Below are positions 6,932 through 64,000 of a DNA stretch of 64,000 nt, piece after piece (the stretch's first letter is position 1; every line of letters starts with the position of its first letter). The notes under the pieces are model-generated. The model searched no databases. It saw only the letters and a list, made by a program, of their open reading frames with translations, and was not told the DNA's origin. Location: NCBI RefSeq assembly GCF_037996765.1, contig NZ_JBBNAD010000001.1, positions 62,001-126,000 of the forward strand, in the 5' to 3' direction. The stretch comes from Bdellovibrio sp. GT3. Its GTDB lineage: Bacteria > Bdellovibrionota > Bdellovibrionia > Bdellovibrionales > Bdellovibrionaceae. Position numbers and translations under genes: made by a program.

Positions 6932-6938
6932 TGTCGTT

Positions 6939-7871
6939 ATGGTTAACAATGACGATTCTTCTGATAATTTGGAAAAAACCAGTATAGTTGCGAGCGACAC
7001 CTTCAAAGGAAGATTGCGTGAGGCTGATGAAGTGCCTCCGGCAATTTTGGTTTTGATCGGGCCTCCGGGTTACGTGGGTAAACAGTATCCGATCACGGCG
7101 AGCGATATCACAATCGGTCGTTCCGTCGAGAGTCAGGTTTACATCGATGATAAAAGTTTAAGTCGTTCCCATGCCAAGTTCGCAGTGAACGGAAGTGAGG
7201 TTTCGATCATTGATTTGGGCTCCACCAATAAAACAGTGGTTAACGGTCAAACGATTCCAGCATTGGCTTCCTGCCTTTTGAAAAACAATGATCAGATTAA
7301 AACTGGCAACGTTATTTTCAAGTTCCTTGAAAAAGGCAGCTTGGAAGCGATGAGTACTTCCGCTTTGTACGAGCGTGCGCAAAAAGATGCGCTGACTGGT
7401 GCGCATTCCAAAGGGGCCTTGATTGAAAAAGGACCTGAGGCGATGAAGCGTTCTGAAGTTTTGAACGAGCCATTAAGTCTGGTTACTTTTGATATCGATC
7501 ATTTCAAAAAAATCAACGACGGTTACGGACATCCGGGCGGCGATTACGTTCTGAAGGAACTTTGCCGTATCGTGATTATGAAACTGATTCGTGCGAATGA
7601 CTTCTTTGCCCGCTACGGTGGGGAGGAATTCGTTCTGCTGCTTTCCGGCTCCAATGCCAAGGTGGCAGCTGAGGTTGGTGAACGTATTCGTCACACAATC
7701 GAAACCAGCGAGTTTGTCTTTGAAGGCAAGAAAATTGCTGTCACGATCTCTGTCGGTGTTGCGACAAAATATGCAGCAGAAACAGAGTGGACTCAGTTGT
7801 ACGAACGTGCCGATAAAGCCTTGTATCAATCAAAACAAGGTGGCCGAAACATGGTCACAGTTGCTCCATAA
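6939..7871 (+). CDS. dgcB: Diguanylate cyclase with N-terminal FHA domain (DgcB-like)
   Basis: Makes cyclic-di-GMP from two GTP. The 310-residue chain has a short tail (residues 1-30), an FHA phosphothreonine-binding domain (about 40-130; motifs IGRS, SLSRSHAKF, LGSTNKTVVNG) and a GGDEF domain (about 145-310). The active-site loop reads RYGGEEF, and an inhibitory I-site RxxD (RAND) lies five residues before it, so catalysis and product inhibition should both be intact. The tail carries Thr14 in a LEKTS context. In B. bacteriovorus HD100 I recall DgcB (Bd0742) having the same layout, with tail phosphothreonine sensed by the FHA domain, and being needed for prey invasion. The ATG at 6939 gives that numbering; no other nearby start fits. 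Confidence 0.9.
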   Translation: MVNNDDSSDNLEKTSIVASDTFKGRLREADEVPPAILVLIGPPGYVGKQYPITASDITIGRSVESQVYIDDKSLSRSHAKFAVNGSEVSIIDLGSTNKTVVNGQTIPALASCLLKNNDQIKTGNVIFKFLEKGSLEAMSTSALYERAQKDALTGAHSKGALIEKGPEAMKRSEVLNEPLSLVTFDIDHFKKINDGYGHPGGDYVLKELCRIVIMKLIRANDFFARYGGEEFVLLLSGSNAKVAAEVGERIRHTIETSEFVFEGKKIAVTISVGVATKYAAETEWTQLYERADKALYQSKQGGRNMVTVAP

Positions 7872-12356: not shown

Positions 12357-12592
12357 TCAAACAGTGTTCACATTTGTATTCGCGTAATCATGGTTCATTA
12401 ACACTCTGTTAGGGAACGCCGTTCATAGTATCATTTCACTACTTCTTAACGACTCATTCTAAGCACTCCACACTGTTTCCCAATGATATTCGCATTATTA
12501 TTCTGGGAATTCTTCAGCAATTTCAACATTCCTCCGAAAAATAATGGAGTCAAAGTCGCTTTCTGGAATGTTTAGGAGGACGTGTGGATAGG

Positions 12593-46355: not shown

Positions 46356-49300
46356 ATGAAACATTTCCTCCTGGGTTCGTTAATAGTGTTATCAGGATAT
46401 TTGCTGTCGTCGTGCAACAACGCTGGCTTGCAAGGCACTTCCATTCCTTCGAAGTTTGAAGGTGTGTCGGAAGCCATTGCCATCTCTCCAACAGCGGTGA
46501 AGCTTTCTTGGTCCTTGCAGGCTCGTTTCAAAGAATATCGCATCTATCGTAAGGGATTTAACACTCCTGATAAAATTGAAACCTTTGCCACGACAACGAT
46601 TGCCCCCTTGGCGACGGATACCTACTACGATTTTGCAGTCACAGGTGTAGAGGCAGTTGGTGGTGAGGAAATCGGTTATGATAAGTATATCACCGTAAAG
46701 ACCATGAGTACTTTCACAGGTGTTCCAGCCTCTGGCTTGACGGCGCAGTCCAACGGTTCTGTCGAGGTTAATTGGATCAAAAACGGTGAAGGTGTCACTT
46801 ATAGAATTTATACCAAACGCGAAAATGAAACTTGGAATTTAACTTCACCAGCGGCCACGATTTTTAACCGTAGCGTTGGGACCGTCACGAATCTGCCAAG
46901 TGGTAACAAGTATTGTTTTTGGGTGATGGCACATTATCAAGACGGAACTTTTGAGCCTGCCAATATGTCCGAGGCATATATCAACTCGAAAGCGCCATGT
47001 GTGTTGGTACAGTCTCAGCTGGCCAATCTGCCGACGGTGAAAATTCAAATGGCTATCGTGGGGAATTTCCCATGGTTTTGGACCGAAGGTGGCGACTCCA
47101 CTTATACGACCGAGATTTTTGAGCGCTCCACCGGGATTCGTTGGGCGATCGTAAACGGGAATGACTATTTCCGTTCAATTGTTCCAATTAATCCGGGTCA
47201 AAAGGACATGTACGCCAAAGTGACATCCGCAGCGGGAGCCAGCACCATCGTCACTGTTTTGGTGGAGGGTACCGGTCAGCTAAAAAAGCCGTTAATTCGC
47301 TCCTTGGAAGGTACTTCAGCGCCACTTCCTCTTTATCCGCGCCTGGTAAATGGCGGACTGGGTATGCAGGAGCTGGGAGCTCAAGTTGTAACGGGTGATT
47401 TCAATTGTGACGGCTTGATGGATGCGGCGGTAAGTGCACCGCGCGCAACGGCTTACGTCGGAGACAGTCCTCAGGACACGACCGGTGCTGTGGTTATTTA
47501 TTATGGATACGATGCACCTCCTACATATGATGCCAATGGAAACATCGTCGATCCTCCTCCGGCTTTGAATATGACACCGGCTCCGAACGCGGATGCCGCG
47601 TTTCCGAATCCGCAATTGGTATACTACCCAGGTCTCGCCGCAGGCACTCGCTTGGGTCAGCGCTTGGCGGTCGGGAACATTAATAATGACTGTTTCAGTC
47701 GCTATACGGATCTTGCCGATCCAAAGGCAAATAAAGTCGGCCTGTGTGATAACTTGTTCACACCGGCTTCTGGTGTTTCTGATATCGCCAAAGTTAAAAA
47801 AATATATACCTGTGACGATTTGGCCATGATGACCAATCAAGGTCAGGTCTTCGTCGCATTTGGAGATCCTACTCGCGGATTGGTCAGTGGTTCTGGTGGT
47901 ATTTCCTACGGGGTAAATGAAACGACTTGCGATCCGACATCGTTCAAGTGCCGTCCGGTGCGGGTCTCGGAATCCAATGCCTACAATACAACTGCAATTG
48001 CTTTTGGTGACTATAATAATGACGGCTTTGATGACCTGGCGGTCGGGATTACGACTTGGGTTTCGCCAAACTACAAACGTCAGGTCACGGTTCTGCGCGG
48101 TGATCGCATGGGACTTATTCCATCCGGAACCGTGAAGTCCTTCCCCACCATTGATGCGGAAACGATTCCCCTTGCTTCGTTGGTCGCGGCAGATGGCACT
48201 TTCGTTGGCAAAAGCTACACCGAGGATTTTGCCCGAGCTGTCGGGACCGCTTATAATTCCCGAGTCTGTGAAAACAGCGGCACCTATACATTCCGGCAAA
48301 CAGGTATCGCCGGAGAGACTTCTCCAGCACCGAAAAACAAAGGTTATGATTTCACAAAATGTGACGACCTGATCATCGGGGCTCCGGCTCGTTCTTTGGG
48401 CCGTGGTTCGATCCTGGCATGTAAAGGTGAAATGCCAACGATCGCGAGCGGCGCGACGGATCTGCAAAAAATCATCTCTTGGACTTGCAAAGAATCTTAT
48501 CCGGATCTGGCAAGCAACTCGGCGGCCGACTATATTTCGGTTCAGGGTTATGGAACCAGCATCCTTGGAGTGCCAAATCAGAATGGTTATCCTTTAACAA
48601 ATATCATCGGAACAACGAACAACGTACCCAATGTAAATGGAACAGTGTTCGTGGGTGCACCACTGTCCTCTGTTAGCGGGCAGGCGAGTGCCGGTGTGGT
48701 GTTTGGTTACTATGTCACTCCAAGGTCCAATGACAATGCCACGGGCGGGATTTATGGAATTCTGGATCAGCAACAGGAAGTCACTGCCATCAATACCGTC
48801 GCCTGTGACGCTCGTAACACAAATGTGACGACGGGGGCATTGAAGCACTGTGAAAATCAGCTGATTCATACCAATCCTCCAGAAGCCGGTGTGCAGTTTG
48901 GACTTGCGATGGGGACTGTTGCTGATATCGAAACGATATCTCGAAACATGCCTTCACTGGCGATCTCTGCACCTTATCGTGCAACCACAGCTTCCACGGG
49001 GAGTTCCACAATTACAGCCAGTGGTGTGATCTACCTTTATAAACCGGATGTTTCGACACTGGGTTATGAAGGAGCCACTCGTATTGATACGCCTCGCTTG
49101 TCGGATAACGACAATACTGTGTGCTCCACCAATTGCACATGGTACAGCGGTGGTGTGAATCCATTCGGGGCTTCGGTCATTTATCCCCGTGATCTTTCAC
49201 CCAACTCGAATTTTGGTTTGGGTGGAGCCGTTGGGGCGGACTTCAACGGTGACGGTTCGGGCGACGTGATTGTTGGCGCTCCTTATCATTCCTCTCCAGT

Positions 49301-51047
49301 ATATTATAACGGTGCGACGTTTATCTTTAATTCCACGGGCAACTTCGCATCGTCGGTGACCAACGCCAATCAGACGATCAATGTGAACTTCAGTAAAGAG
49401 CTGAACTATCGTTATGAGCGTGCCAAAGTGGCGGGTGATTTCAATGGCGATGGCTACATGGATGTAGTGACGCAGATTTTTGTCGGTAATACGGTTGAAA
49501 TGGTTATCTATTACGGCAGTGCGAACGGTTTGGTGGTGACACCGGAGCCGTCACGAGTTCCGTTGATGGAATTGGATCCACTGAAACTGGTCGTGGATTT
49601 GGATGTTGGATTTGGCGGTGAATTTTATCGCGTCGGCAGTGTCAATGGTGATGCTTACGACGATGTGATGGTTGTCGGAAATCGCTCCTCTTATGTATTC
49701 TATGGTTCTTCCGGGGGATTGGTTGCGAACACCACTCCGTCCGTTTCACCGGTCGGGAATAATCCGCTGAGCTTTGCCTTTGCTGATATAGATTCCGTTT
49801 ACTTTCACAGTGTCGGAATCAGCAAAAGAACAGCAGCGAACACGGTTCCAGATTCTATTTTATACGAGGATTTCAACCCAAGAAACCGTGCTGTCACATA
49901 TGGTGATTTCAATGGTGATGGCTTTGGGGATTTCACAGTGGCTGCCGACAGCATTGATTTGCCATCAACAGCAGTGCGCGTCGGTTCCCTGCAATATACG
50001 ACTGCGAATTTTGGCCGGGTCTATGTGTTCTATGGATCCAAAGACGGCCCGCAGGTTAATCGTTCGAACGGTCGAACTCTTCTGAGTGACAGCCTGGGCA
50101 ATGCTGCGGATGTGGTGATTGAAAATCCCTGCACGATGACAACGCCGGCAGTTTGTAAAGTACAGATGCTGTTGTCGAACGAGGCCGCTCCGGGAGGCAT
50201 ACGCTTTGGCTGGAGCACTGCCTCTGTTAAGTCTTTGGAGACTCAATCCGGGGAAATTTACGATGAGCTGGTGGTCGGTGATCCTGGTTATTCATCCTAC
50301 AAGGGACGCGCCTATCTTTATAAAGGAACGAACCGAGGATTGGCTTATACGCCAGCCCAAAAAATCGAAGGCTCAGCGGCAGCTGAAGGGTTTGGTTACA
50401 GTGTTGTTGCGCCTGGAGACATCAACAAAGACGGCGTCGCTGATTTGGTGATCTCAGCACCGCGTACGAGCTCGCCAACTGTTTACACTTTCTTTGCTGG
50501 CACCGTTGGGACAGTGATGGCCTTCAAAGGCGCGCCAGATATAAACTCAACAAATTATTTTGGCGCGGGCGCACTGGCTATCAATACTTTGAATGCAACA
50601 AACCAGGACTTAAAACCCCAAAGATCTTCTCCGGATTTATTTCAAGGAAGTACAGATCATTTTGGTGTGGGCGTGGCTGCAGTTGGTGACCTTAATGCTG
50701 ACGGATATGCCGATATCGTCGTCAACGTGCCGGGCCGTGACTATGATTTGGATACGGTTTTGGCCAACACCGGTGCCTTCGTTGTTTATTATGGCGGCGA
50801 GTATGGATTGAAAATTGATTCGTCGCCTACAACGACACCTCGCTGTTATGGAGGTACGACGCCAGTTTGTGAACCGGCGCTTTTGTATCTGCCAAACCGT
50901 CAGGCCAATGAACATACATACATTTCAAGCACACCTGCGGGTGATATCAACGGAGACGGAATTCCTGATATTTTAATGGGAGCTCCGGGACGCAATCATC
51001 CATCTGGAAAAGCCTTTGCTACGGGAGTCGTTTATGTCCTTTATTAA
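46356..51047 (+). CDS. Giant FG-GAP/FnIII lipoprotein, copy 1
   Basis: A 1563-residue lipoprotein (lipobox LSSC in MKHFLLGSLIVLSGYLLSSCNN). Residues about 25-310 are FnIII-like domains. From about 340 to the end there are many FG-GAP repeats of integrin-alpha type, each with a Ca-binding D-x-N-x-D-G loop: GDFNCDGLMDAAVSAP, GDYNNDGFDDLAVG, ADFNGDGSGDVIVGAP, GDFNGDGFGDFTVA, GDINKDGVADLVISAP, GDLNADGYADIVV, GDINGDGIPDILMGAP, and YYG-type strands. These should form one or more seven-bladed propellers. The ATG at 46356 is used; 46347 is an alternative. First gene of the operon; it overlaps the next by 14 bp. Confidence 0.85.
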   Translation: MKHFLLGSLIVLSGYLLSSCNNAGLQGTSIPSKFEGVSEAIAISPTAVKLSWSLQARFKEYRIYRKGFNTPDKIETFATTTIAPLATDTYYDFAVTGVEAVGGEEIGYDKYITVKTMSTFTGVPASGLTAQSNGSVEVNWIKNGEGVTYRIYTKRENETWNLTSPAATIFNRSVGTVTNLPSGNKYCFWVMAHYQDGTFEPANMSEAYINSKAPCVLVQSQLANLPTVKIQMAIVGNFPWFWTEGGDSTYTTEIFERSTGIRWAIVNGNDYFRSIVPINPGQKDMYAKVTSAAGASTIVTVLVEGTGQLKKPLIRSLEGTSAPLPLYPRLVNGGLGMQELGAQVVTGDFNCDGLMDAAVSAPRATAYVGDSPQDTTGAVVIYYGYDAPPTYDANGNIVDPPPALNMTPAPNADAAFPNPQLVYYPGLAAGTRLGQRLAVGNINNDCFSRYTDLADPKANKVGLCDNLFTPASGVSDIAKVKKIYTCDDLAMMTNQGQVFVAFGDPTRGLVSGSGGISYGVNETTCDPTSFKCRPVRVSESNAYNTTAIAFGDYNNDGFDDLAVGITTWVSPNYKRQVTVLRGDRMGLIPSGTVKSFPTIDAETIPLASLVAADGTFVGKSYTEDFARAVGTAYNSRVCENSGTYTFRQTGIAGETSPAPKNKGYDFTKCDDLIIGAPARSLGRGSILACKGEMPTIASGATDLQKIISWTCKESYPDLASNSAADYISVQGYGTSILGVPNQNGYPLTNIIGTTNNVPNVNGTVFVGAPLSSVSGQASAGVVFGYYVTPRSNDNATGGIYGILDQQQEVTAINTVACDARNTNVTTGALKHCENQLIHTNPPEAGVQFGLAMGTVADIETISRNMPSLAISAPYRATTASTGSSTITASGVIYLYKPDVSTLGYEGATRIDTPRLSDNDNTVCSTNCTWYSGGVNPFGASVIYPRDLSPNSNFGLGGAVGADFNGDGSGDVIVGAPYHSSPVYYNGATFIFNSTGNFASSVTNANQTINVNFSKELNYRYERAKVAGDFNGDGYMDVVTQIFVGNTVEMVIYYGSANGLVVTPEPSRVPLMELDPLKLVVDLDVGFGGEFYRVGSVNGDAYDDVMVVGNRSSYVFYGSSGGLVANTTPSVSPVGNNPLSFAFADIDSVYFHSVGISKRTAANTVPDSILYEDFNPRNRAVTYGDFNGDGFGDFTVAADSIDLPSTAVRVGSLQYTTANFGRVYVFYGSKDGPQVNRSNGRTLLSDSLGNAADVVIENPCTMTTPAVCKVQMLLSNEAAPGGIRFGWSTASVKSLETQSGEIYDELVVGDPGYSSYKGRAYLYKGTNRGLAYTPAQKIEGSAAAEGFGYSVVAPGDINKDGVADLVISAPRTSSPTVYTFFAGTVGTVMAFKGAPDINSTNYFGAGALAINTLNATNQDLKPQRSSPDLFQGSTDHFGVGVAAVGDLNADGYADIVVNVPGRDYDLDTVLANTGAFVVYYGGEYGLKIDSSPTTTPRCYGGTTPVCEPALLYLPNRQANEHTYISSTPAGDINGDGIPDILMGAPGRNHPSGKAFATGVVYVLY

Positions 51048-54000
51048 TCTGGTAAAATGGGCTCTTCTCAGCACCGCGATCGTAACGACTTTGGCCTGCA
51101 CGGAAAAAGTTGAAACCGGAAGCGTACTTAAAGATTTCTCGGGTGTGGCGGGGGTGGAACCTTTGTCGCCCACCGCTGTGCGGGTTTATTGGAATCTTCA
51201 TGATCGCTATCAGAACTACAAGGTATTCAATAATACCTCCAACACCGCATTGGTGGAAACACCTCGTAATGAAGCCATTATTCGTAACTTGGCACCAAAT
51301 ACGTCCTACACGTTCAAAGTCATTGCGACGGACGGTACGGTCAGTGTCGGAGGAAACAAAGAGATCACCATTTCAACCCTGACACCATTTCCTGGGGTGG
51401 ATAAAGTTATCAAGGACTCAGATGGCAATCTGGTTTTATCATGGAACTATGCTGCCAAAGTCGCTTCCTATCAGATCTTTGTAAAAAAATACGAAGACCC
51501 GACGGCGGCTAACACGAGTAACTGGGCAAATGTTGATTATACTTCTTACGACACGCGCTATGTTTTCCGCAATATGGAAGGGTCGACACGTTTTCACTTT
51601 GTGGTTCAGGTAAAGTACCTTGATGAAACCATTGGCTATGCCACCAAAGCCGTCAATGTCAGCACGAACTCTTCGTTTCCCACACCTGCATACTCCTTAA
51701 GTCCTATTTCGATTGGTTCATTGCCTTTTGTAAAAGTCACTCCGGTGGTGAATTCCACTTATAAAAATGAAAACTATGTTTCCCGTATGTACTCTGGAAG
51801 TACACCGATCTCGGATCCTATCACGGGGGCGGGTACCATCGTGTTTTCTCCTGGTACCGGTGTTACCAACGGAAAGGTCGAAAACCTTTCTTTGCAGGTG
51901 AGCTATACCGATGCCGGTAAAACAGAAACGCTGGTCTTCGATAAACTGAGTACGTACATCAAGGGGATTTTGGGATTGGATGCAGTCCCTCCACTTAAGA
52001 ATGTGGATTCGGGAATTGCCTTCATGGGTGAAGCGTCGACGACGGGTGATTTCAATTGCGATGGATATCCTGATTTGGCGGTCGGTCTGCCATCTGTTTC
52101 TGTGACATCTGCAGGTGTGGCCGCTCCCAGAGCGGGAGCGGTTTATGTTTACTACTCGGTTAGAAACCCCTCCACCGGTATTTATAAATTAAATACTTCA
52201 GGGACACCAAGCCGCAGTCCTATCAGTCCGGGATCTGATCCGCAGCTTTTGACATTTGAAGACTTAACGGAATATTCAAGATTCGGTAAGTCACTTTCTG
52301 GCAGTGGTAATTTGAACGGTGACACATTGTTGGGCAATGCCTGCCAGGATCTTCTGGTGGGAGCTCCGGGTTACAATACAGCGAACACATCAAGAGCTGA
52401 CAAGAACTATGATGGTGCAGCCTTTGTGTTTTTTGGAAGTTCCAGAGGTTTGACGGCTCCTTCACGCGTCAAAGATATGCAGCAGAACGTGGAAACCTGT
52501 AATGGTCTGGTGGAAAACGCGACCTGCTCGGCAGCGATGTTGTGGCCGAATATGGCGATTTTGCCAAGCACTGAAATCAACCCGACAGCAATGACTTTGG
52601 CGGATGATCCCCAATTCGGGTTTGCGACGTCCTTCATCGGCGATTTCAATGCCGATGGTTATGATGATATCGCCGTTGGTGCGCCGACGGCATCTTGGGA
52701 TGGAGTGGCTGATTCGACTGCTTCCGGTAATGCCCGAATTGTTCTAAAGGTCGGTTATGTGGCCGTCTTCTTTGGTTCAAAAAATGGGTTGGGGTATGAG
52801 ACTCCAGCAGCTGATGCGAACAAAAAATTCAGATTTTTAAAAGTCTTTTCTCCGAATCCGCACGAAGGACAGTTTTTTGGTTACTCTATTGCCGGTGGTG
52901 CTGATGTGGACGGTAAATTCCGCATTCGTAACAAACAGGATCAACTAGTGGGCGGGTCCGACATGATTGTCGGGGCCCCGGGTGATCGTTATCCACAAAT
53001 GACTACATTGCAAAAATTGAGATTATTGGGTGCTTGCAATCCGGGAAGTGGTGATTGTGCTTCGTATGGCTTCACCAACGGAGGTTGGGGCGGTTTTTCC
53101 AATGACTCTACAGGAAATAGTCACTACTTCGGTTTGCCCACCAACGCCGGAACGTCTGCCAAAGTTGGTGACGTAACTGGAGCCGCCTATTTGTTTTTTG
53201 GTCGCGGCGCTGATACCGCACCCGCTCCGGGAGTGCAAGAAAGTCCCTCGCGCATGGCATTCTGGGGGTGCAGTACGCGTAAGATGTCAGTTCCCGGCGA
53301 ACACTATTCTTGTCTGGTAAATTCCACTGGGGCAAAAGTTTTATTTCCACGCAGTGGCTATAAATCCAACGGGACCTATAAGCTAAAAAATCTGGGCTTT
53401 GGCTCCTCTGTCGCCTTGGTCGGGGATCCATCTCGCTACAATAACAACAATGCGGTAATTACGACGGTGTCGGATCCAAACGGTGACGGCTACGCTGAAG
53501 CGGTTGTGGGTGTGGGACTGTTTTCGAACTTTGCAAACGAACAATCGGGCGCATTGTGGGTTTATTACGGCAATCCATTCAGACGGTATGAATTCAATGA
53601 CTTCTACCAATTGGATTCGGTAACTCCAACTGATAAAAATCTGGATTGGAATGATGGACTTGCACAATGTACGGCATTCACCACAGATAATGCGCCCACT
53701 CGCCAAATGTGTGCGCCGACGCTGATCCGTAGTAATTCAATTGGTTCCTACTACAATTTGGCACTTCATCCGGAAGGAATGGCAGTTGGCGATGTGACTG
53801 GCGACGGACTGAAAGATGTCGTCGTGGGGGCCGTGGGTGATCAGACCAAAGGTACCTATTCCGGAGCCGTGTATGCATTTACAAGCTTGGCGGGAGCAGG
53901 GATCACCACGAACTTCCTGAAGTTTTATAATTCCTCAGCCCGCGAGTACGACTACATGGGGCGCTCGGTGGCCGTGGGAAATTTCGACGGTGACTTTAGT

Positions 54001-56268
54001 GGAACCCGTCCATTGAATGACGTCGCAGCCGGAGCCCATTTAGACAAGACCACGAAAAACGGTGGTGGTGCTATTTATGGATTCAACAGCAATGGTCAGG
54101 CATTGCCTTCCGTGAACTCGGTGCCATCGTTTGCGATCTATGACTCGTTGGGAAGTCCGCAACAGTTTGGTTATGATAGTATTCGTATTGTCGGGGATAT
54201 CAATCGCGATGGCTATGCGGATGCTGTCGGTAAACTGGTGCGCCCTTCAGCGAATACGGCGGCTTTTTCAACAGAAGCTGTGGTTTTCTTTGGTTCAAAA
54301 GTGGGTCTTGTGACGACCGACTATTGCCTGGCAAATAAAGCGAAAGTTTTCAAAGACTCTGGAGCCAGTGATGATTCCTGTTATCCGATGGTCACGCCGG
54401 CCCAGGGTATTACTAAAGATGATATTGCCTTGCCTCAACTTGTCGCTCAGCCGACGAATATTTCCAGCACATGGGCCAACAGAGCTTTTGCTGCGGGTGA
54501 TATTAATGGTGATGGCTTTGGAGATGTGACTTTTGTAGATGCCACAATCCAGGGTGGTGGGCAGGTTGTGATTTATTACGGCTCTCGCTCTGGTTTGCAA
54601 GCCGTCAACAATCCGCAATGGATTCCTGCTTATGGCGATCCGCAGATCGTGACGAAGCGTTGGGCTTATCAGGAAAGCCCGTCAAATACCGCTTCAGCAA
54701 CCAACGGTGCGGTGACTCGTCGTCAGCTGGTTTTTCATGGGGATTTCAATGGTGATGGACTGAGTGACATCGTGATCAGCAGTCCTTATGCCACCAGCTT
54801 TTTTAGTATGAATAAAACCGGCACGAATAGTTTCAATGTCGGGGTATCGCCTCCAGGAAATCCTACTGATGGATGGACTGCGGGTGGTGGTTGGCAGTGT
54901 GCCGATAGCACGGACACAGGTTGTACCAGTGGAGCTCCGGCTTGGGAAAGTGGTCGCATCTGGATTTACTATGGATCCACAAATGGGCTGCAAACTCCTA
55001 AAGCCAAAGGTTACGCCAATTCGGATATGGAACCTGGTGTGAATGCCAATCTGACTTCGACCAATTCTTCATATATGGTGGACACATATACCTCAGAGAC
55101 TACCGGAATGAAGGCATGTACGGGAGCGATAACGAAGAACTGCAAGATGCAATATTTGTACAGCCCGTTTGTCGATAACATTCCTCATGGTTACGACCGT
55201 TTGATGCACCAGTTTGGTAAAAGTATAGCGGTCATGGACTATGACCACGACGGGATTGATGACTTGGTGGTCTCTGCTCCAATGTGGGAGGACACTGCTT
55301 GCTATTACGAAGACGGACGCGCTGACTACGGACGCTTGTTCCTATATCGCGGCAGTTCAGCAGGAATCGTGGCTGGAAGTCACGGCGACTACTATGACAG
55401 GGATCCGATCCAGACAGCATCATGTCAGTCTGACGATCAGTTCCAGTCACGCAATACAGCTAGTTTGAACTTAAATGGCACCGGAAAAGTTCGCTCCATC
55501 ATGCCGCCAATTATTAATGGTGGTTTAAGTGGTAACGATAGCAGCCGCCGATTTGGCTGGATGATTCAATCTGCCGGTGACGTGAACAATGACGGTTACG
55601 AGGATCTGATTGTTTCCTCTAGCGAAACTCCAAAGAGTGGTTTGGACGGGGCTGGCATGGGTTACATCTTCTACGGTCCGCTGTGCGGAAATGACAATTC
55701 CACAGGCATGTGGTCCGTGTTGGGTGCCAATCTGAATACCCAATATAAATTAACAGATGCTGCGATCGTCGCAAGCGGTGTGATTCCAATGGCGGAGTGT
55801 GCCCAAGCATCGGGGGTGATGAAACCTGCACCGATGGCATTTTACTTGTGGGACGCGAGCAATACCGATTTCAGTGGTTACGAGATTATTTCAGGTCGCA
55901 TGAAAAAAGGAGACTTCAACGGGGACGGTTTTGATGACGTCGTCATGGGAGCTCCGTTCTGGGATGACCAAGTGAACGGCATCACGAACTTTGGACGTGG
56001 CGTGGTGTTCTTTGGTTCCTCCACGGGACTGCACACTGCTGACTATCCGGATTCCTCTGTTGTGGCTGATAGTTCCGGTCATTTGAAGCCATATATCGTG
56101 CAACGACAGGATACGAGCACTCTGACTCCACGCTATTTCTATTCCAACACGTCTGCGGGGGACGTGAATGGGGATGGCACGATGGATCTTATGGTGCCAA
56201 CGGAATTTTATGATGGTGCGGGCAGTGTAAGGGGTGTGCGCATCGGTACCTATTTCTTATTGTTCTAA
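51034..56268 (+). CDS. Giant FG-GAP/FnIII lipoprotein, copy 2
   Basis: A 1744-residue paralogue of the previous gene with the same order: lipobox (STAIVTTLAC), FnIII-like domains (residues about 30-310; LSPTAVRVYWNLHDRYQNYKVF) and a long FG-GAP array with D-x-N-x-D-G loops (GDFNCDGYPDLAVGLP, GDFNADGYDDIAVGAP, GDVTGDGLKDVVVGAV, GDINRDGYADAVG, GDFNGDGLSDIVISSP, GDVNNDGYEDLIVSS, GDFNGDGFDDVVMGAP, GDVNGDGTMDLMVP). GGGAG precedes the ATG at 51034, which lies inside the end of the upstream gene. The two arose by duplication; sequence divergence is high outside motifs. Surface location is inferred from the lipobox. Confidence 0.85.
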   Translation: MSFINLVKWALLSTAIVTTLACTEKVETGSVLKDFSGVAGVEPLSPTAVRVYWNLHDRYQNYKVFNNTSNTALVETPRNEAIIRNLAPNTSYTFKVIATDGTVSVGGNKEITISTLTPFPGVDKVIKDSDGNLVLSWNYAAKVASYQIFVKKYEDPTAANTSNWANVDYTSYDTRYVFRNMEGSTRFHFVVQVKYLDETIGYATKAVNVSTNSSFPTPAYSLSPISIGSLPFVKVTPVVNSTYKNENYVSRMYSGSTPISDPITGAGTIVFSPGTGVTNGKVENLSLQVSYTDAGKTETLVFDKLSTYIKGILGLDAVPPLKNVDSGIAFMGEASTTGDFNCDGYPDLAVGLPSVSVTSAGVAAPRAGAVYVYYSVRNPSTGIYKLNTSGTPSRSPISPGSDPQLLTFEDLTEYSRFGKSLSGSGNLNGDTLLGNACQDLLVGAPGYNTANTSRADKNYDGAAFVFFGSSRGLTAPSRVKDMQQNVETCNGLVENATCSAAMLWPNMAILPSTEINPTAMTLADDPQFGFATSFIGDFNADGYDDIAVGAPTASWDGVADSTASGNARIVLKVGYVAVFFGSKNGLGYETPAADANKKFRFLKVFSPNPHEGQFFGYSIAGGADVDGKFRIRNKQDQLVGGSDMIVGAPGDRYPQMTTLQKLRLLGACNPGSGDCASYGFTNGGWGGFSNDSTGNSHYFGLPTNAGTSAKVGDVTGAAYLFFGRGADTAPAPGVQESPSRMAFWGCSTRKMSVPGEHYSCLVNSTGAKVLFPRSGYKSNGTYKLKNLGFGSSVALVGDPSRYNNNNAVITTVSDPNGDGYAEAVVGVGLFSNFANEQSGALWVYYGNPFRRYEFNDFYQLDSVTPTDKNLDWNDGLAQCTAFTTDNAPTRQMCAPTLIRSNSIGSYYNLALHPEGMAVGDVTGDGLKDVVVGAVGDQTKGTYSGAVYAFTSLAGAGITTNFLKFYNSSAREYDYMGRSVAVGNFDGDFSGTRPLNDVAAGAHLDKTTKNGGGAIYGFNSNGQALPSVNSVPSFAIYDSLGSPQQFGYDSIRIVGDINRDGYADAVGKLVRPSANTAAFSTEAVVFFGSKVGLVTTDYCLANKAKVFKDSGASDDSCYPMVTPAQGITKDDIALPQLVAQPTNISSTWANRAFAAGDINGDGFGDVTFVDATIQGGGQVVIYYGSRSGLQAVNNPQWIPAYGDPQIVTKRWAYQESPSNTASATNGAVTRRQLVFHGDFNGDGLSDIVISSPYATSFFSMNKTGTNSFNVGVSPPGNPTDGWTAGGGWQCADSTDTGCTSGAPAWESGRIWIYYGSTNGLQTPKAKGYANSDMEPGVNANLTSTNSSYMVDTYTSETTGMKACTGAITKNCKMQYLYSPFVDNIPHGYDRLMHQFGKSIAVMDYDHDGIDDLVVSAPMWEDTACYYEDGRADYGRLFLYRGSSAGIVAGSHGDYYDRDPIQTASCQSDDQFQSRNTASLNLNGTGKVRSIMPPIINGGLSGNDSSRRFGWMIQSAGDVNNDGYEDLIVSSSETPKSGLDGAGMGYIFYGPLCGNDNSTGMWSVLGANLNTQYKLTDAAIVASGVIPMAECAQASGVMKPAPMAFYLWDASNTDFSGYEIISGRMKKGDFNGDGFDDVVMGAPFWDDQVNGITNFGRGVVFFGSSTGLHTADYPDSSVVADSSGHLKPYIVQRQDTSTLTPRYFYSNTSAGDVNGDGTMDLMVPTEFYDGAGSVRGVRIGTYFLLF

Positions 56269-56291
56269 GAGAGTTTAAGGGGACGGGGATT

Positions 56292-59200
56292 GTGATAGTA
56301 CGTTACTTGTTAGTATTTCTTACTGCAGTGATGCTTGGGGGCTGTCTTGAATCGACAAGCTCCTCATCAGCTATTGTCATTCCTCCGGGTGGACTGATTT
56401 TGCTGGATATGAGAACTGTCAATGTCGTGGGTGAAGACCACTACTCGTTGTATCTGGCAGAATATGTTCCGGCTGAAAATAAAACCCGCAACCTTCTGGA
56501 CATGACCACAGATGAAAAACCCGATCAATTCCGTAAAATTCTTCCTAAGAATCTGGCATTGACTTCATCGGCAGTTGCCAAAGTCGTCATGGAGTATCGT
56601 TCGACACCGTGGTATGCGATTGTCTTCCCTGATGTAGTGAACAAAGTCGATGTGGATTCGACGCTGGTGTTTTCGCTTCTGTCTTCTTATCCCAACCGTG
56701 CTTTGACTTCCTACACCCATGCCGAGGTTTTAAAAATTACCGAAGCCGTGAAGAAATTCCGTGAAGAGCGCATGGCGATGTTTGCCATTGCCAAAGACTT
56801 CAATCCGGATCTTCTGTATCGCTTTGTCCGTAACGGTCTTTCCACCGATGTGCAATTTTTGACGATGCTTGAAAGTCATAACGTACTGTTTGATTTTGAT
56901 GGCAACGGCGATATTGCCGCAGAACCCTTTCCGTTTAACATCGACAATCGTCCACCGATTGTCGATGACCAGGCGACGACCAAGCAGATTGATCAGAATG
57001 TAAATGAAATGGCAACCCTTCAAATGCGCGCCGCCGCCAGGGATCCTGACGGAGACGAAGTGTTCTATGCGTGGGCTTTTGAAAATCAGCCGATCGCCAG
57101 CGAGGATGGACTGGTTAAATGGATTCCCAATTTCGAGCATGGACGTTTGAATCCTTATCAAATGTCCGTCATCTTTTCTGACGGCGGCAAGGTCACTCGC
57201 ATCAATTGGAATGTCTTTGTTAATAATGTCAATCGACGTCCGGAATACACTCATTCCTGCGCATTGGCGGCTCTTGAAAATATTCAATGGGTTTGTAAGA
57301 TCAGCTACCGGGATCCTGACAATGAAAAGGTGTCTGTTTCTTTGGAGCCTATCGACGGCTCTGGTCCCATCACGATTAATGGTGCTGTGGCACCTGCCCA
57401 AGTTGATAACGTCAATGAAGTTGAATTGAGGTGGACTCCCACCAACAGTGACGCTTTGAAAAGATCCGCTACTGTTGCGCTCTCTTTCACAGATGAATCC
57501 CTGGGACTGACCGTGGGCACATTGAATCTTGCCGTATCAGAAAACAACTCTGCTCCTTATCTGGTTGATGGGGTTGCAGGAGCGAAAGTCGTCAATAATG
57601 ATCCCTATGAGTACGACTACTGTGCCAATGAAGTGCCCGATGGTTTGCCGATTTATCGCTATTACTTTGATATCGTCGATCCTGATAATCTGATCACACC
57701 AACACCGTCACCTGGCGATGTGGTGTCGATCACCACTGCCGGAACGCTGAATTCGAACATGACCAAGGTTTCGGAAACAGCCATTGCCGGTGGTATCCGC
57801 TATACCTACGATTGGAAACCCACTCATGCTGCGAAGACGGGAACATTCATCGTTTCTGCCAAGGACAATCACGGGGGATTGGCTGCGGCAGTGACCTTAA
57901 CCTTCACATCACAAGATCGAAATACCAAACCTTGCCTGGGTGGTGGTGATGTGAACACTACACTTCTTCATACATCGGCGGGCGCAAATTCCAACTATTC
58001 AAGTTCCGACCGTGACGGCGGTGCATTGTGGGTCGAAGCCTTTGGTTTTGCTGCCAATAACAGCTATGACATGTTGAAACTAGTTATGGACTGCGGTTCG
58101 ACGCAGCCCATGTTGCTAAAGCAAAACATCACTCAAACCGAACCGACCTATCGTAAAAACTCGGGTACACTTTGTATTCGTGGTCGCTGGGAATCAGACT
58201 GGTGGGGCGGAGCTGGTTACGTCATCTTTGAACGCTCTAGTGTCAGAACGGGCAGACCGACGGCGGCAACGACGATCAAAAAGGGCACGGTTTTAACGTC
58301 AACAGTCGCCGGTTACGTGCAAAAATTTAAAACACATTACGATGTCGTGGTGCAGCCGCAGGACTTCTTGTTGTACGTTCCGGTCGTTCCGGAAACAACC
58401 GATGTCCCTGCCGGTAAAGTCACAGTTTTTGAATCTGCTAATCCAGGCGGCCTGAGTGTTACGAACACTGCGGTCATTGATTTGAAAGGGATGGTTACCT
58501 TTTCTCGGGCAACGGCCACCGCGGCCGTGACCATTCCTGCGGGTACTATCGTAAAAACCGCAGAATTCACCGGCACACCTTTTGTGAATAGTGTGAAGTT
58601 TGAAGTTCCGGGAGCAGTTATAATGCCGATTGGAACGACAACCATCACAGTACCGGTATGGCGACTGTATACAGTGCTTCCGACGAACTCACCATTATCT
58701 ATTTCCTATGTGGCGCCTTCTGCGGATCAAGCTGGATTTCCATTCACTGCGAAGGCAGCACCGAATCTTACGAACTATGATGCCAATTCATTAAACGTTG
58801 AACCAAATTTTAATACACCAATTGCAAAACGTTTCACAGTACGTGCACTGGATGGTGAAAAGCCGACAGTAAATGCCATCAATGCTTTCGTGGACCCATT
58901 GCCCGCGGCGGCGGTAACCTTGACTGTAAGGAACCCTGCATCCTTTGATATGGATGGATTGGTAAACTTCAGTCGTACAAATACGACGGCAGCCTTCACA
59001 TTGCCAGCAGGTACCAAGCTCATGACGACCAATCGCACTCTGTATGAGACAATGGATGCGGTTACCATGAATGCCGGTACTGCGACAGTCAATGGTATCT
59101 GGGTTCGACGTACCAACAATATCGGATCGCCGGCGCAGCGAACGGTGACTTATTCTTACTCCCATTCCAACGTGGTTTCAAAACTGATCACCGATCCGAT

Positions 59201-62200
59201 TGTTCAGGCTTCCGAAGGTGTACCGCTGACCAATGGGGCTATTGAGGTCTCGGATAACTTCTCTGAGATTCCATCTCCTTTTTATGCAGTTACAAACTAT
59301 TGGTATCCATATGATCGCAGGGATACTTATTCCTTTAATCTTTCGGTATCAGGCACAGCCCCGACAGGGACTTGGGACTTGTGTCGGGATCCGGGTAACG
59401 CGGGAACAGCCTGCAGCAACCGTTGCGTGCCAGTCAGTGGATCGAATTTCCTGTCTGTTCATCCAAGCTCGGGTCGCAAGTATTTTAATACCAATAAGTG
59501 TTATCTTCGTTACACACCAGTGACCGCGGATTTGTCGGGGACATTCTCGTTCAAGTTGACCGTGTACGAAATCATGAATAAAGGAAATCCTGATACCTGG
59601 ACATCGCAGACCAATTGGACCACCAACATCACATTGGTGGTAAATGAGATCAATCATCCCTCGATCTTGACGGATGCCTCATTTAATAACCAGGCAGCAG
59701 GCGTGGGAGCGTCAACCAGCAATCCTATAAATCTGGGATCTTTTGATGAAGGTATCGCTGGCTACTACAATATTTATACAAAAGATACCAACAAGGGACT
59801 TGAGTTAAAGACCACAAATTTTGAACTGGAACCGCAGGTGTATGATTTGAAAACCAGCACCTGGGTGCCGCGGCCCGCGGGGCTCGGTGTGAGTGTTGAT
59901 AAAGTCGAGGATTTGACCGCCGCCGCCGGTAGCAAAACCACGGCCAGAATTTCGTGGATGCCAACAGATCAAGAGTCAAAACAGTTTTCTGGATCTGCAG
60001 GTTTTGTCGTCAAAATGAAAATTTACGACGCAAAATCCTCGCCGGATTTGACGCAGACAATTTATGGTTATTACAAAGTTCGCGTCACCAATAAAAATCA
60101 GATTCCTTCCATTGGACAGATGGCTCCTGACAATCAGGTGCGGGTATTTGCAGATACCTACGTGAAGAAAGAATTTTATCTGTACGACAACGACGCCTAC
60201 ACCCCACAGGGTGGATCGTTCTCAACTCAGCTTTCGATTTGTCGCGACAGCAATGGGAATCCATTGCAGCATGCAACCCTGGACCCGGGTTCAGCAGATC
60301 CTTATATCTGCCATGCGACGACGACGACTTTTGCCTCGGAAGTGGCAAATTACGATCCGGCCTACGTCAACAATCGCAATGTGAGCCCCTGCTTCGTGAG
60401 TAACGCTTTAAATACGGATCTTGCGATTCCGAAATTCACCCCGGTGGGTTCACCAGAATTGAACGCGGGGATTCTTCGTCAGAAGTACCAAATGGAGTGG
60501 TGCCCTCAGCGTGGTCACATTGGTGTTTACTCTGCCGAATTGAATGTCAGCGACAACGGGGACGTGGATCGTGACAGTGTGGCATTGGCTAAAGCCTTAA
60601 GTTCATCACCATTGCAACTGACCATCGTGGCACCGGTATTCCTATTGAGTCCTCGCGTGGATATCAATAATGTTCCGGTACACTATATGCCGCAAGCGGC
60701 AGCCAGTATGAACAGCTACCCATTCCGATATGAGGTTCTGGTTAATAATTCGCAAAAAAACCCATTGGAATATTCCCTGTTAAATGCGCCACGAGCGTGT
60801 GGCGAATCCAATGGTGTTTGTATTGATCCGCTGACCGGTGTGATTTCCTGGATTCCTAATCATACAATGGATGTGACGCCGATAAATGGTGCAGGCAGTT
60901 TGGTTCGCGTTCAGGTCAAAGATACGGTGACAGGTGATTTGGATTCCGCGCACTTCTATTTAAAAGTTCAAAACGCGTTGTCTCCATTCGAGGAGTCTCC
61001 GGTCATCAATTCGGTGATTCCGTCGGGAGATTCGGTTCTGTTATCCGAAAAAACGACCTTGAGCTTTTCAGTCAGCGCAACGGATCCCAATACCAACGAT
61101 ACGGTTTTCTATCGTTGGTATGTGAATGATGTATTGAAATACGATGAAAGTTCGACCTTTGCATTCAAACCGTCAGACACGGATGGTTCCGTGGATATTG
61201 ACGGCACTGGTCCCAAAACCGCCGGCGAATACACCGTCCGTGTGGACGTGACGGATGGGAACTATGTCGTGTCGCGCAGTTGGACTGTCAAGGTCAAGAA
61301 TACCTACCTGCTTGGGGAATCGATTTTCGATTTAGCCAATGCTCGTCTGGAGGGACTACCAGCAACAACTCCGCAGAACGTGGTTTGGAGTGGTGAGGTC
61401 CCATATGGGATCGCGCAAGGAACTGGCTATCAAGATCACCTGATTATATATGGAAGCTACTTATCCGGAGCCTTTATCAAACACTTTCTGTGGGATCTGC
61501 TCAGTGTGAATGGCGTGGTCTCGAAGCCGAATGGAACCATCACCATCCCACCGTGGAATTTTACCGAAGCATTGCCATGGTTAAGCGGCACCTCCACCCG
61601 TCGAGTGGCGATCAATCCATTGGGTACGGGTTATGACATGTTGATGACAGTGCAACCAGCAAGGAACGGACCGTTCGGATTGACCACAGAGGCGTTGCAT
61701 ATACTGAATGGTGATTTAACCACTCTGACTTTGAGTGGTAATAACAAGTGTTCAGGGGATTGCCCAACGCAACTCTACACGAGTCCGCACTACTCCGACT
61801 CGCGAATCACAGCATCCATGGACTCGGCCTATGTGTTCTATGCTTCAGATTCCCAGACGGTTTTGCATTATGATTATCTGACGCCGGATGCGCCAAAAAC
61901 CGTTTACAATTTTGGCACTGCGAAAATCACGGGCATGACATTGAATCGCGCCATTGATCGTCTTTATGTGACGACTCAGCAGACAACGCCTTCGGTAGCG
62001 CATCGAATTTTCGTATTTAACGTCACGCCAGCACGCAGTGGTGGGATTCCGTCATTGGTTGCGAATCTGTCGGTCTTTGATGGCGTTGCGGGACACGAGG
62101 ACTGCAAGCCGTCGGATATAGTTTATGACTCCGTCACCAATCGTGTTTACGCACTCCTTAGTGGAACCGGGGGAGTCGTAACCTTCCCTGATAGTGCTTC

Positions 62201-62483
62201 CACGACGCCAACCACTGGCACTATGCAGTTTATTGGTGTGAACGAGCTGAATGCTTCGGTCTTTGATGTGCCTGGCGGCGGTCGTCGTTTGGCGATACGT
62301 GCCTCCGATCGACTTTTGATCGGAACGATGGAAGGGGCCAATCAGGTATTTACAATTGATCTGAATGATAACCGGGTTTATGTCAGCGCGGTTCAGGTGC
62401 CGATTGCCAGCATAGCCAGTTATGAATCAGGGCAGATCTTATTGATTAGCCGAAGTAAAGGAAAGGTCCTCAGAGCAAAATAG
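56292..62483 (+). CDS. Giant lipoprotein with Ig/cadherin-like modules
   Basis: A 2063-residue lipoprotein (VMLGGC lipobox). After an N-terminal region of about 200 residues come many beta-sandwich modules with calcium-type DPDGDE / DPDN / DPNTND signatures (RAAARDPDGDEVFYAWAF, ISYRDPDNEKVSVSL, VSATDPNTNDTVFYRWYV). Two related internal segments (AVIDLKGMVTFSRATATAAVTIPAG and ASFDMDGLVNFSRTNTTAAFTLPAG) are tandem domain copies. The last ~370 residues change style (VPYGIAQGTGYQDHLIIYGS to the end) and could be a propeller. GTG start with AAGGGGA eight bases upstream, 23 bp after the FG-GAP copy 2 gene. Adhesion or scaffold role is inferred. Confidence 0.8.
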   Translation: MIVRYLLVFLTAVMLGGCLESTSSSSAIVIPPGGLILLDMRTVNVVGEDHYSLYLAEYVPAENKTRNLLDMTTDEKPDQFRKILPKNLALTSSAVAKVVMEYRSTPWYAIVFPDVVNKVDVDSTLVFSLLSSYPNRALTSYTHAEVLKITEAVKKFREERMAMFAIAKDFNPDLLYRFVRNGLSTDVQFLTMLESHNVLFDFDGNGDIAAEPFPFNIDNRPPIVDDQATTKQIDQNVNEMATLQMRAAARDPDGDEVFYAWAFENQPIASEDGLVKWIPNFEHGRLNPYQMSVIFSDGGKVTRINWNVFVNNVNRRPEYTHSCALAALENIQWVCKISYRDPDNEKVSVSLEPIDGSGPITINGAVAPAQVDNVNEVELRWTPTNSDALKRSATVALSFTDESLGLTVGTLNLAVSENNSAPYLVDGVAGAKVVNNDPYEYDYCANEVPDGLPIYRYYFDIVDPDNLITPTPSPGDVVSITTAGTLNSNMTKVSETAIAGGIRYTYDWKPTHAAKTGTFIVSAKDNHGGLAAAVTLTFTSQDRNTKPCLGGGDVNTTLLHTSAGANSNYSSSDRDGGALWVEAFGFAANNSYDMLKLVMDCGSTQPMLLKQNITQTEPTYRKNSGTLCIRGRWESDWWGGAGYVIFERSSVRTGRPTAATTIKKGTVLTSTVAGYVQKFKTHYDVVVQPQDFLLYVPVVPETTDVPAGKVTVFESANPGGLSVTNTAVIDLKGMVTFSRATATAAVTIPAGTIVKTAEFTGTPFVNSVKFEVPGAVIMPIGTTTITVPVWRLYTVLPTNSPLSISYVAPSADQAGFPFTAKAAPNLTNYDANSLNVEPNFNTPIAKRFTVRALDGEKPTVNAINAFVDPLPAAAVTLTVRNPASFDMDGLVNFSRTNTTAAFTLPAGTKLMTTNRTLYETMDAVTMNAGTATVNGIWVRRTNNIGSPAQRTVTYSYSHSNVVSKLITDPIVQASEGVPLTNGAIEVSDNFSEIPSPFYAVTNYWYPYDRRDTYSFNLSVSGTAPTGTWDLCRDPGNAGTACSNRCVPVSGSNFLSVHPSSGRKYFNTNKCYLRYTPVTADLSGTFSFKLTVYEIMNKGNPDTWTSQTNWTTNITLVVNEINHPSILTDASFNNQAAGVGASTSNPINLGSFDEGIAGYYNIYTKDTNKGLELKTTNFELEPQVYDLKTSTWVPRPAGLGVSVDKVEDLTAAAGSKTTARISWMPTDQESKQFSGSAGFVVKMKIYDAKSSPDLTQTIYGYYKVRVTNKNQIPSIGQMAPDNQVRVFADTYVKKEFYLYDNDAYTPQGGSFSTQLSICRDSNGNPLQHATLDPGSADPYICHATTTTFASEVANYDPAYVNNRNVSPCFVSNALNTDLAIPKFTPVGSPELNAGILRQKYQMEWCPQRGHIGVYSAELNVSDNGDVDRDSVALAKALSSSPLQLTIVAPVFLLSPRVDINNVPVHYMPQAAASMNSYPFRYEVLVNNSQKNPLEYSLLNAPRACGESNGVCIDPLTGVISWIPNHTMDVTPINGAGSLVRVQVKDTVTGDLDSAHFYLKVQNALSPFEESPVINSVIPSGDSVLLSEKTTLSFSVSATDPNTNDTVFYRWYVNDVLKYDESSTFAFKPSDTDGSVDIDGTGPKTAGEYTVRVDVTDGNYVVSRSWTVKVKNTYLLGESIFDLANARLEGLPATTPQNVVWSGEVPYGIAQGTGYQDHLIIYGSYLSGAFIKHFLWDLLSVNGVVSKPNGTITIPPWNFTEALPWLSGTSTRRVAINPLGTGYDMLMTVQPARNGPFGLTTEALHILNGDLTTLTLSGNNKCSGDCPTQLYTSPHYSDSRITASMDSAYVFYASDSQTVLHYDYLTPDAPKTVYNFGTAKITGMTLNRAIDRLYVTTQQTTPSVAHRIFVFNVTPARSGGIPSLVANLSVFDGVAGHEDCKPSDIVYDSVTNRVYALLSGTGGVVTFPDSASTTPTTGTMQFIGVNELNASVFDVPGGGRRLAIRASDRLLIGTMEGANQVFTIDLNDNRVYVSAVQVPIASIASYESGQILLISRSKGKVLRAK

Positions 62484-63677
62484 ATGAAACGGATTTTATT
62501 AAGTCTAATGACGGCAACATGGATGTCTTTTTGCCTCGGTGAGCTGGCTGTAGCCAGCAGCTGGATCAACATCGACTTCATCAAAAAAAATGCAGTTCCC
62601 GTTCGTCGTGTGACGGACGATGTGATTTTTTTACCTCGAAGCAACCGGGTGGGCGTCGGGGAGCTGGTCGTCATTTTGCGTGTGCAAGGGGATGATGTCG
62701 AAGTAATCGCCCGTGGCAATGCAGAGACGGTTCAAAACAATGAACTCTTAGTGGTGATGGATGGCAAGTCGATCACGAAAATTCCAAAAGTCCGTGACCT
62801 GGTTGTCAGTTTGTCAAAATTAAAGCCGGCTCCGGAGGATCCTTTTTTCCCGCAACCGCCGGACAATCCCATTGTTGAAAAAGCGGACCCCTATGAGCCT
62901 GGATATATTGTTTTTGAAATGGGTTCCAATCAGGGGCATTTTGAAAGTCAGTCGCCGAATCAAGCCAACCAATACAAGATTTACGACTATAAATTCACCG
63001 AGATGCATTTTCTTTGGTATGTGGATATGTTCTGGCGTTATGGAATTGAATACCAAACTTCCAGTGCAAATATTCCCCTGCAGTCATATTACCGGGAGGA
63101 TCGACCTACTACCGCCGAGGAAACGCGAATGGCTTTGCACTATCGCCTGCTTCCTGTTTGGAAAGAATTGCGTCCGACTTTGAAGTTGATTTCACTTAGC
63201 AGCAAGTTTGATACAACCAATGAGGATGAGTATGTCGTTTCTTCCCAGGCCTCGGGCATGGGCTTGGGTGCGAATTTTCATTATCTGTTTTCAGATAATC
63301 TGTTTAAAACAAAAAAGGGATTTGGCTGGGCTTTCAATCGAGTTTACTTCGATATGAACTATTTCCCAAGTTATTCGGTCTCCGATGGCGAGGTGAGCCG
63401 CGGTTCCAGTTCCTCCGGAACATTGATGGAACTGAAGGTCGGGGCCACCGCTCTTTTCTATGTGCCGTTCATTCCCTGGCTGAAACGCTATTCTGTGGAT
63501 GTCAGCTATGGGATGTCGCAATCTCAAGTTACGTTTTCCGGAGATGTTAAGAATGCAACCGATGGGGCTTACGATATTCCTCCGGGACAGTCTTACAATG
63601 AAAGTCAGTCATACATTAAGATTATGCTGGGACTGCGCCTGGATGATTTTATCAGCAATATAATGAAGTCGAGATGA
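62484..63677 (+). CDS. Exported protein, probable outer-membrane beta-barrel
   Basis: A 397-residue protein with a signal peptide (LLSLMTATWMSFCLGELAVA). Residues about 30-115 form a beta-rich domain (VGVGELVVILRVQGDDVEVIARGNAET). From about 150 to the end the chain alternates in strands with aromatic girdles (YKFTEMHFLWYVDMFWRYGIEYQTSS, MALHYRLLPVWKELRPTLKLISL, GFGWAFNRVYFDMNYFPSYSVSDGE, TALFYVPFIPWLKRYSVDVSYGMS), as in outer-membrane barrels. Its ATG follows the TAG of the 2063-residue gene with no gap and without its own close ribosome site, so translation is coupled. It could anchor or export the lipoproteins of this operon. Confidence 0.75.
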   Translation: MKRILLSLMTATWMSFCLGELAVASSWINIDFIKKNAVPVRRVTDDVIFLPRSNRVGVGELVVILRVQGDDVEVIARGNAETVQNNELLVVMDGKSITKIPKVRDLVVSLSKLKPAPEDPFFPQPPDNPIVEKADPYEPGYIVFEMGSNQGHFESQSPNQANQYKIYDYKFTEMHFLWYVDMFWRYGIEYQTSSANIPLQSYYREDRPTTAEETRMALHYRLLPVWKELRPTLKLISLSSKFDTTNEDEYVVSSQASGMGLGANFHYLFSDNLFKTKKGFGWAFNRVYFDMNYFPSYSVSDGEVSRGSSSSGTLMELKVGATALFYVPFIPWLKRYSVDVSYGMSQSQVTFSGDVKNATDGAYDIPPGQSYNESQSYIKIMLGLRLDDFISNIMKSR

Positions 63678-64000
63678 TATTGAAGACGATTCTATCTTTT
63701 TATTTAGCAGTGTTTTTCAGCTTGGATGCTGTGGCGTCAGAGGCCTTGGATAAACTTGATTTCAACCCGGTCAATGTACCCGTGACAGAGCAAGGCACTG
63801 CCGACCTTAGTGAGTTGGAAAACCATCCCACACCATTGGTAGAGTACATCATCGACAGCTCAGGTTCGATGGGACAGATTCTGACGGGCAAACAAACCAA
63901 AATATTTGTGATGAAGAAGCTCCTGTCCCGATACTTGGTGTCCCAATGGACCGAAAAAACCTCCAGTGGAATGAGAGTGATCGGCTCCCGGCGCAAAAAA
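63674..64000 (+). CDS. VWA-domain protein (3' end outside window)
   Basis: 109 codons are visible. A signal peptide (MILKTILSFYLAVFFSLDAVAS) is followed by a short spacer and the start of a von Willebrand A domain with the MIDAS sequence IIDSSGSMGQI. This metal site is the same kind used by integrin I-domains and many bacterial adhesins. The ATG overlaps the TGA of the barrel gene (ATGA), so it belongs to the same operon. The remainder of the protein is beyond the window. Confidence 0.85.
   Translation, partial: MILKTILSFYLAVFFSLDAVASEALDKLDFNPVNVPVTEQGTADLSELENHPTPLVEYIIDSSGSMGQILTGKQTKIFVMKKLLSRYLVSQWTEKTSSGMRVIGSRRKK

Follow-up and report, generated by a model that had tools for sequence, protein, structure and literature searches.

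A flagellar-type stator and a candidate rotor encoded with predicted surface adhesins in Bdellovibrio and related bacteria

The window analyzed here, a stretch of 64,000 nucleotides, corresponds to positions C1:62001-126000 of the 3.58-Mb genome of Bdellovibrio sp. GT3. The analysis was extended by a further 15 kb of contig sequence beyond the window end, and positions above 64000 are given in extended coordinates (C1 minus 62000); the end of the window truncates the VWA gene E, and the motor genes begin just past it (Table 1). An earlier note on this DNA described five coupled genes with overlaps or gaps of at most 23 bp. The coordinates, the lengths (1563, 1744, 2063, and 397 amino acids for A to D), and the spacing are right (A and B overlap by 14 bp, B and C are separated by 23 bp, C and D by 0 bp, and D and E overlap by 4 bp), and the coupling stands. 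A sixth gene, F, follows E after 3 bp. The motA gene starts 602 bp beyond the end of F. A scan for sigma-70 promoters 5' of A gave no match above chance. Divergent from A lies a gene for a 998-aa FecR-like protein with repeated domains (window 43073-46069, minus strand), which occupies the equivalent place in genomes G048, G073, and G177, and is absent there in G104. At the other end, a gene for a HAMP and SpoIIE-type phosphatase (L006:14490-16277, minus strand) is directly convergent with g585; its place is kept in several Bdellovibrio, and it is a possible regulator.

Table 1. Genes of the locus and a second system of the same design in genome G121
Feature	Position	Strand	Evidence or remark
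A: lipoprotein with two Fn3 domains and FG-GAP beta-propeller repeats, 1563 aa	46356..51047	+	Pfam; lipobox LSSC; Ca-loop motifs
B: lipoprotein with two Fn3 domains and FG-GAP repeats, 1744 aa	51034..56268	+	Pfam; lipobox TLAC; Ca-loop motifs
C: lipoprotein, weakly PKD/Ig-like, 2063 aa	56292..62483	+	Lipobox LGGC; PKD_4 under cut-off; conserved in clusters
D: predicted 10-stranded barrel of the outer membrane, small beta domain at the N-terminus, 397 aa	62484..63677	+	AlphaFold
E: secreted VWA/MIDAS protein, 453 aa	63674..64000 in window, ends at 65035 extended (L006:4674-6035)	+	Pfam VWA; MIDAS
F: sixth gene of the operon, 410 aa	65039-66271 extended	+	
motA	66874-67677 extended	+	MotA_ExbB
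motB	67678-68625 extended	+	OmpA; MotB_plug; D33
x204: probable small barrel	68619-69233 extended	-	
PEGA/TPR lipoprotein	69304-70194 extended	+	
g195: probable small barrel	70191-70778 extended	+	Paralogous to x204
g327: membrane protein, 327 aa	70781-71764 extended	+	
g585: FliF RBM3-TM-FliG_MC fusion, candidate rotor, 585 aa	71761-73518 extended (L006:12761-14518)	+	
Second system of G121	L131:13330-20000 and L132:1-8850 (G121:C98, about 42-57 kb)		About 20 kb from the first system

The FG-GAP and VWA assignments proposed earlier both hold in profile searches against Pfam. FG-GAP repeats (PF01839) are matched at 1.5e-40 in A and 4.1e-53 in B, each protein also contains two Fn3 domains (fn3 9.8e-7 in A and 4.4e-7 in B), and calcium-loop motifs of the DxNxDGxxD type number eight in A and nine in B, against about 0.1 expected in shuffled sequence. 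Both proteins thus carry tandem FG-GAP repeats with calcium-binding loops, as expected of an FG-GAP propeller. A, B, and C keep their lipoboxes in nearly all homologues, in agreement with the description of A and B as FG-GAP lipoproteins. For C, described as an Ig/cadherin-like lipoprotein, the lipobox was upheld but the domain call is weak: PKD_4 scores 20.1 bits, below its cut-off of 27, and Big_9 is matched in two of the 12 homologues. The parallel drawn with animal integrins and cadherins is one of shared building blocks only. As a reading of the locus it is also too narrow, since the operon makes up only one half of a larger set of genes.

The remaining two proteins of the original five, D and E, are not lipoproteins. 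The candidate outer-membrane barrel D was substantiated by its AlphaFold model (pLDDT 83), which has 10 long strands and a fold resembling that of OmpT/Pla/OpcA (Z about 18.5, rmsd about 3, for the predicted model); a PDB profile search with D gave no match. Its N-terminal small beta domain would lie on the periplasmic side. In E the VWA domain (PF00092, 2.2e-7) is above its cut-off, and the MIDAS is complete, with the DxSxS, T, and D residues conserved in 12 homologues, and with the first S of DxSxS occurring as SSGS or GSGS; the VWA/MIDAS assignment is thereby confirmed. MIDAS/VWA proteins thought to act at the surface of predatory Bdellovibrio have been described, namely Bd0875 and Bd1483; however, these carry a lipobox and were described singly (PMC11003981), whereas E has a plain signal sequence, no lipobox, and a long C-terminal part, and is encoded within a motor cluster. 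Identity of E with Bd3099 or Bd0875 is unsupported, as Bd0875 is a lipoprotein and the presumed locus in strain HD100 would lie, judging from genome position, near Bd3020-Bd3030.

The products of motA and motB match MotA_ExbB at 1.3e-22, OmpA at 1.7e-18, and MotB_plug at 4.2e-17 (Pfam). MotB has a full peptidoglycan-binding domain, and its proton-carrier residue Asp33 is invariant, as is the SYAD-type segment in which it lies. The candidate rotor g585 matches FliG_M (2.6e-7) and FliG_C (1.4e-5), both above the Pfam cut-offs, and a profile match to the crystal structure of FliG, 1lkv, reaches 1.5e-27 over 211 positions. Its AlphaFold model has pLDDT 72 and pTM 0.32, the latter making the arrangement of the domains uncertain. 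In this predicted model, residues 15-147 match the RBM3 ring domain of FliF (Z 10-11), residues from about 348 to 567 match the middle and C domains of FliG, and the C domain matches the MotAB-bound FliG in 8ucs (Z 10.1, rmsd 2.6). A transmembrane helix at 163-187 is followed by lysines and arginines, which would place the FliG part in the cytoplasm. On the torque helix, the FliG side of the interface with the stator, the position of R281 is K or R and that of D289 is D or E in all 12 homologues, whereas the position of D288 is not acidic (positions hand-counted from the homologue alignment and the 1lkv match). By comparison with 1lkv, the FliM-binding EHPQ motif of the FliG middle domain is lost, being replaced in 12 of 12 homologues. 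The fold in question is common to FliG and to MgtE/FlgY-like E-ring proteins (PMC13023049). Assignment of g585 to the latter is unlikely, since the match to the FliG middle and C domains is far above the MgtE matches and the order RBM3-TM-FliG fits a rotor. In family f17, an extra FliF-RBM-like membrane protein of 343-390 aa is encoded directly before the FliF/FliG fusion (L044:11678-12706 and L048:9972-11141).

At the family level, g585, A, E, and MotB of the locus type (weaker partial paralogues being left aside in its count) occur in an identical set of 12 out of 66 genomes and in no other. In the phylum set of 369 Bdellovibrionota genomes, one per species and many of them draft MAGs, E and g585 are each found in 26, of which 25 are common to both (Fisher 1.6e-36, in a test that treats genomes as independent), and the carriers belong to five families and seven genera. 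Of the two discordant genomes, one carries E on a contig of 10 kb, while in the other the contig breaks off within C; both mismatches are probably assembly gaps. In a single pattern scan with E that reached beyond Bdellovibrionota, the named matches were all Bdellovibrionota-type MAGs. Close Bdellovibrio have the gene order A-B-C-D-E-F-motA-motB-x204-PEGA-g195-g327-g585. Other genera differ from this in both order and strand, whereas the set itself stays within about 40 kb, some fragments ending at contig ends. In G121 and G211 g585 lies directly before A, and in family f17 the pair D-E points away from A-B-C and motAB follows C. This company is kept although the order is broken, which argues for a functional unit, and on the combination of co-occurrence and shuffled synteny we reject the view of motAB as a chance neighbor of the operon. 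Judging from these sequence comparisons, it is highly probable that the locus is, as such, a co-inherited motor-adhesin unit.

Genome G121 contains, in addition, a second divergent system of the same design, consisting of a VWA protein, a PEGA lipoprotein, a FliF/FliG-like protein of 631 aa with FliG_M over the cut-off, MotA, MotB, two Fn3 lipoproteins, and an Ig lipoprotein. Related motor loci were observed in G183 (L133) and G015 (L134). The surface proteins A-F could in principle form a passive adhesion or sensing complex that acts alone on surfaces or prey, with the motor genes as mere neighbors on a shared genomic island. The tight packing of A-F and the distance from F to motA are in line with such a complex, as are the adhesive domain types and the function of the MIDAS adhesin Bd0875 in prey invasion (PMC11003981). 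We consider it quite unlikely, given the rotor gene directly before A in G121 and G211, the interleaving of motor and adhesin genes in other genera, the co-occurrence across the families and genera listed above, and the repetition of the motor-adhesin pairing in the second system. Thus the earlier suggestion of a dedicated surface adhesion or sensing complex is retained in part. The conserved, co-inherited set, the profile calls, and the signal sequences and lipoboxes, which indicate the envelope or the surface, make a dedicated adhesion complex likely, but its limitation to five genes falls, as a MotAB stator and a FliF/FliG-type rotor have to be included.

Several features of the locus are those of the bacterial flagellar motor: MotA and MotB with the proton-carrying Asp, the plug, and the peptidoglycan domain, the RBM3 domain of FliF, and the middle and C domains of FliG. 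In contrast to the flagellar motor, the rotor domains are fused here in one protein with a single RBM, and the EHPQ motif is lost; adhesins and outer-membrane barrels are present, and no FliM/FliN gene was recognized at the locus. Genes of the export apparatus, rod, hook, or filament were found nowhere among the proteins of the locus and the neighboring ones scanned. FlhA and an ordinary FliG are encoded on another contig than the locus. An accessory role of MotAB and g585 as a flagellar stator/rotor module, the surface proteins decorating or anchoring the sheathed flagellar pole, has nevertheless to be weighed. Each of the 24 genomes checked, carriers as well as relatives, has FlhA whether or not the locus is there, so that all of them are flagellate and the two roles are not set apart by any carrier lacking a flagellum; family f17, considered as a non-flagellate group that would have proved a non-flagellar role, has FlhA throughout. 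The MotAB pair at the HD100 locus is presumably MotAB2 (Bd3021/Bd3020), judging from position and gene order, and each of the three HD100 MotAB pairs reportedly has a share in swimming, which depends on a single flagellum (Morehouse et al. 2011); this also favors the accessory role. In fliL mutants MotAB2, which is regarded as a stator of the flagellum, is deregulated (PMC11323537). However, in the two-hybrid assay no contact of MotA2 or MotB2 with FliL-Bd1076 was detected (PMC11323537), relatives without any of the locus still have FlhA, and gain or loss of the stator and rotor goes along with that of the adhesin genes. Moreover, the locus MotA of 16 genomes forms one clade (99/100), distinct from the flagellar MotA that these genomes also encode, in a tree where the locus rows come from two groups related only at the phylum level and some flagellar rows are long branches. 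With the FliM-binding motif lost as well, we regard the accessory flagellar role as unlikely. If the locus does serve the flagellum, it would be less novel than a new kind of system. Our data raise doubt whether MotAB2 of HD100 is no more than a third stator for the flagellum.

In its action the proposed machine would resemble two known surface drives, Agl-Glt/CglB and T9SS-SprB, but by the features compared it belongs to neither. The Agl-Glt system of Myxococcus is alike in having a PMF-type stator, outer-membrane proteins, TPR-type parts, and the VWA surface adhesin CglB; the VWA protein E and the predicted barrel D are present at the locus as possible counterparts of CglB and GltA/B/H. However, the Agl motors are TolQR/ExbBD-like and lack a FliF/FliG rotor, whereas the locus encodes a flagellar-type stator and a FliG-type rotor, and its MotB, with MotB_plug and a peptidoglycan-binding OmpA domain, differs from the TolQR-like AglRQS stator, which has no such domain. 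With the type IX/GldLM-SprB system of Bacteroidota the locus shares the idea of a rotary PMF motor that drives surface adhesins; the motor parts differ, and no GldKLMN- or Sov-like Pfam matches were found among the cluster proteins. In the type IX system one PMF motor serves both secretion and motion (PMC13104615), and by this precedent the motor at the locus might, like GldLM, supply the power to secrete, assemble, or retract the giant lipoproteins across the envelope rather than to move the cell. Although more than one barrel is predicted here and the exported lipoproteins are very large, no translocon-like gene was recognized in the cluster, and the 10-stranded D, of OmpT/OpcA size in its predicted model, would be too narrow for folded proteins this large. 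A secretion motor therefore seems very improbable.

Taken together, the genes present, the families and predicted folds of their products, the inheritance of the set as a whole, and the separate lineage of the stator point to a non-flagellar, proton-driven rotor-stator that would be coupled via outer-membrane barrels to surface adhesins for traction or gliding, a reading that we consider fairly probable from the sequences and the predicted models. The proteins would assemble as one complex, in which MotA/MotB would be the proton-driven stator clamped to peptidoglycan and g585 an inner-membrane ring. The stator would push the cytoplasmic FliG part, and the periplasmic RBM3 ring would turn along with it. 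Torque or displacement may then pass across the wall via the PEGA/TPR lipoprotein, barrel D, and the two small barrels to adhesins that would be displayed at the surface, namely E with its VWA/MIDAS domain, the two FG-GAP/Fn3 lipoproteins (A and B), and the very large lipoprotein C. The likeliest job of such a machine would be surface traction independent of the flagellum, that is, gliding, or moving or anchoring on a substratum or on the surface of prey.

Gliding gene clusters of the agl/glt type are already present in HD100, e.g., Bd0828-0838 (PMC3169522, PMC9140294, PMC12546842). Expression of bd2368-bd2377 rises at exit (PMC12546842), and the VWA gene bd3099 and bd1480 (aglQ) go up on surfaces (PMC9140294). 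The locus would therefore be a second surface machine, which need not be the engine of gliding. The gliding field was reviewed in 2026; this review describes the gliding machinery of Bdellovibrio as unidentified and names the motor, the adhesins, and the force transmission as a major challenge (PMC13104615); in HD100 the locus provides a definite candidate that is amenable to genetics and has parts for all three. The full-text literature search, with many subscription papers and preprints outside its reach, returned no description of a FliF/FliG-MotAB adhesin system or, by locus tag, of the HD100 genes. Since no known system passes the comparison of features, this one would be categorically new. 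We give about even chances to the stronger proposal that it represents a new class of surface motor, in which a stripped-down FliF/FliG rotor with MotAB, free of any filament, is wired via outer-membrane barrels to VWA/FG-GAP adhesins, a rotary adhesin drive of Bdellovibrio and its relatives with at least one divergent second version. If true, a flagellar rotor-stator works without a filament, which bears on the evolution of flagella and gliding motors. The distribution of the locus is patchy. In the same genus, 15 of 24 genomes are without it, as is the presumed B. exovorus genome, and from the family counts given above it is not essential for predation as such; strains with and without it form a natural comparison.

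Other observations concern separate loci. In other Bdellovibrionota families, a FliF/FliG-like protein of about 800 aa is followed by motA and motB (L096:9958-13040, L097:7975-11898, and L098:670-5182; motB was not seen in L096, at a contig end). No adhesin genes were recognized near these stand-alone modules, which are possibly another non-flagellar motor. Elsewhere in the GT3 genome, three tandem VWA-domain genes (G000:C5:1516809-1520054) probably form a Bat-type operon. The window itself encodes an FHA-GGDEF protein (6903-7868), its domains arranged as in DgcB, a cyclase related to predation, and a repeat-rich secreted protein of 1603 aa (12584-17395) that has tail-fibre or trimeric adhesin-like repeats and no Pfam match, followed by a glycine-rich protein of 705 aa (17411-19528).
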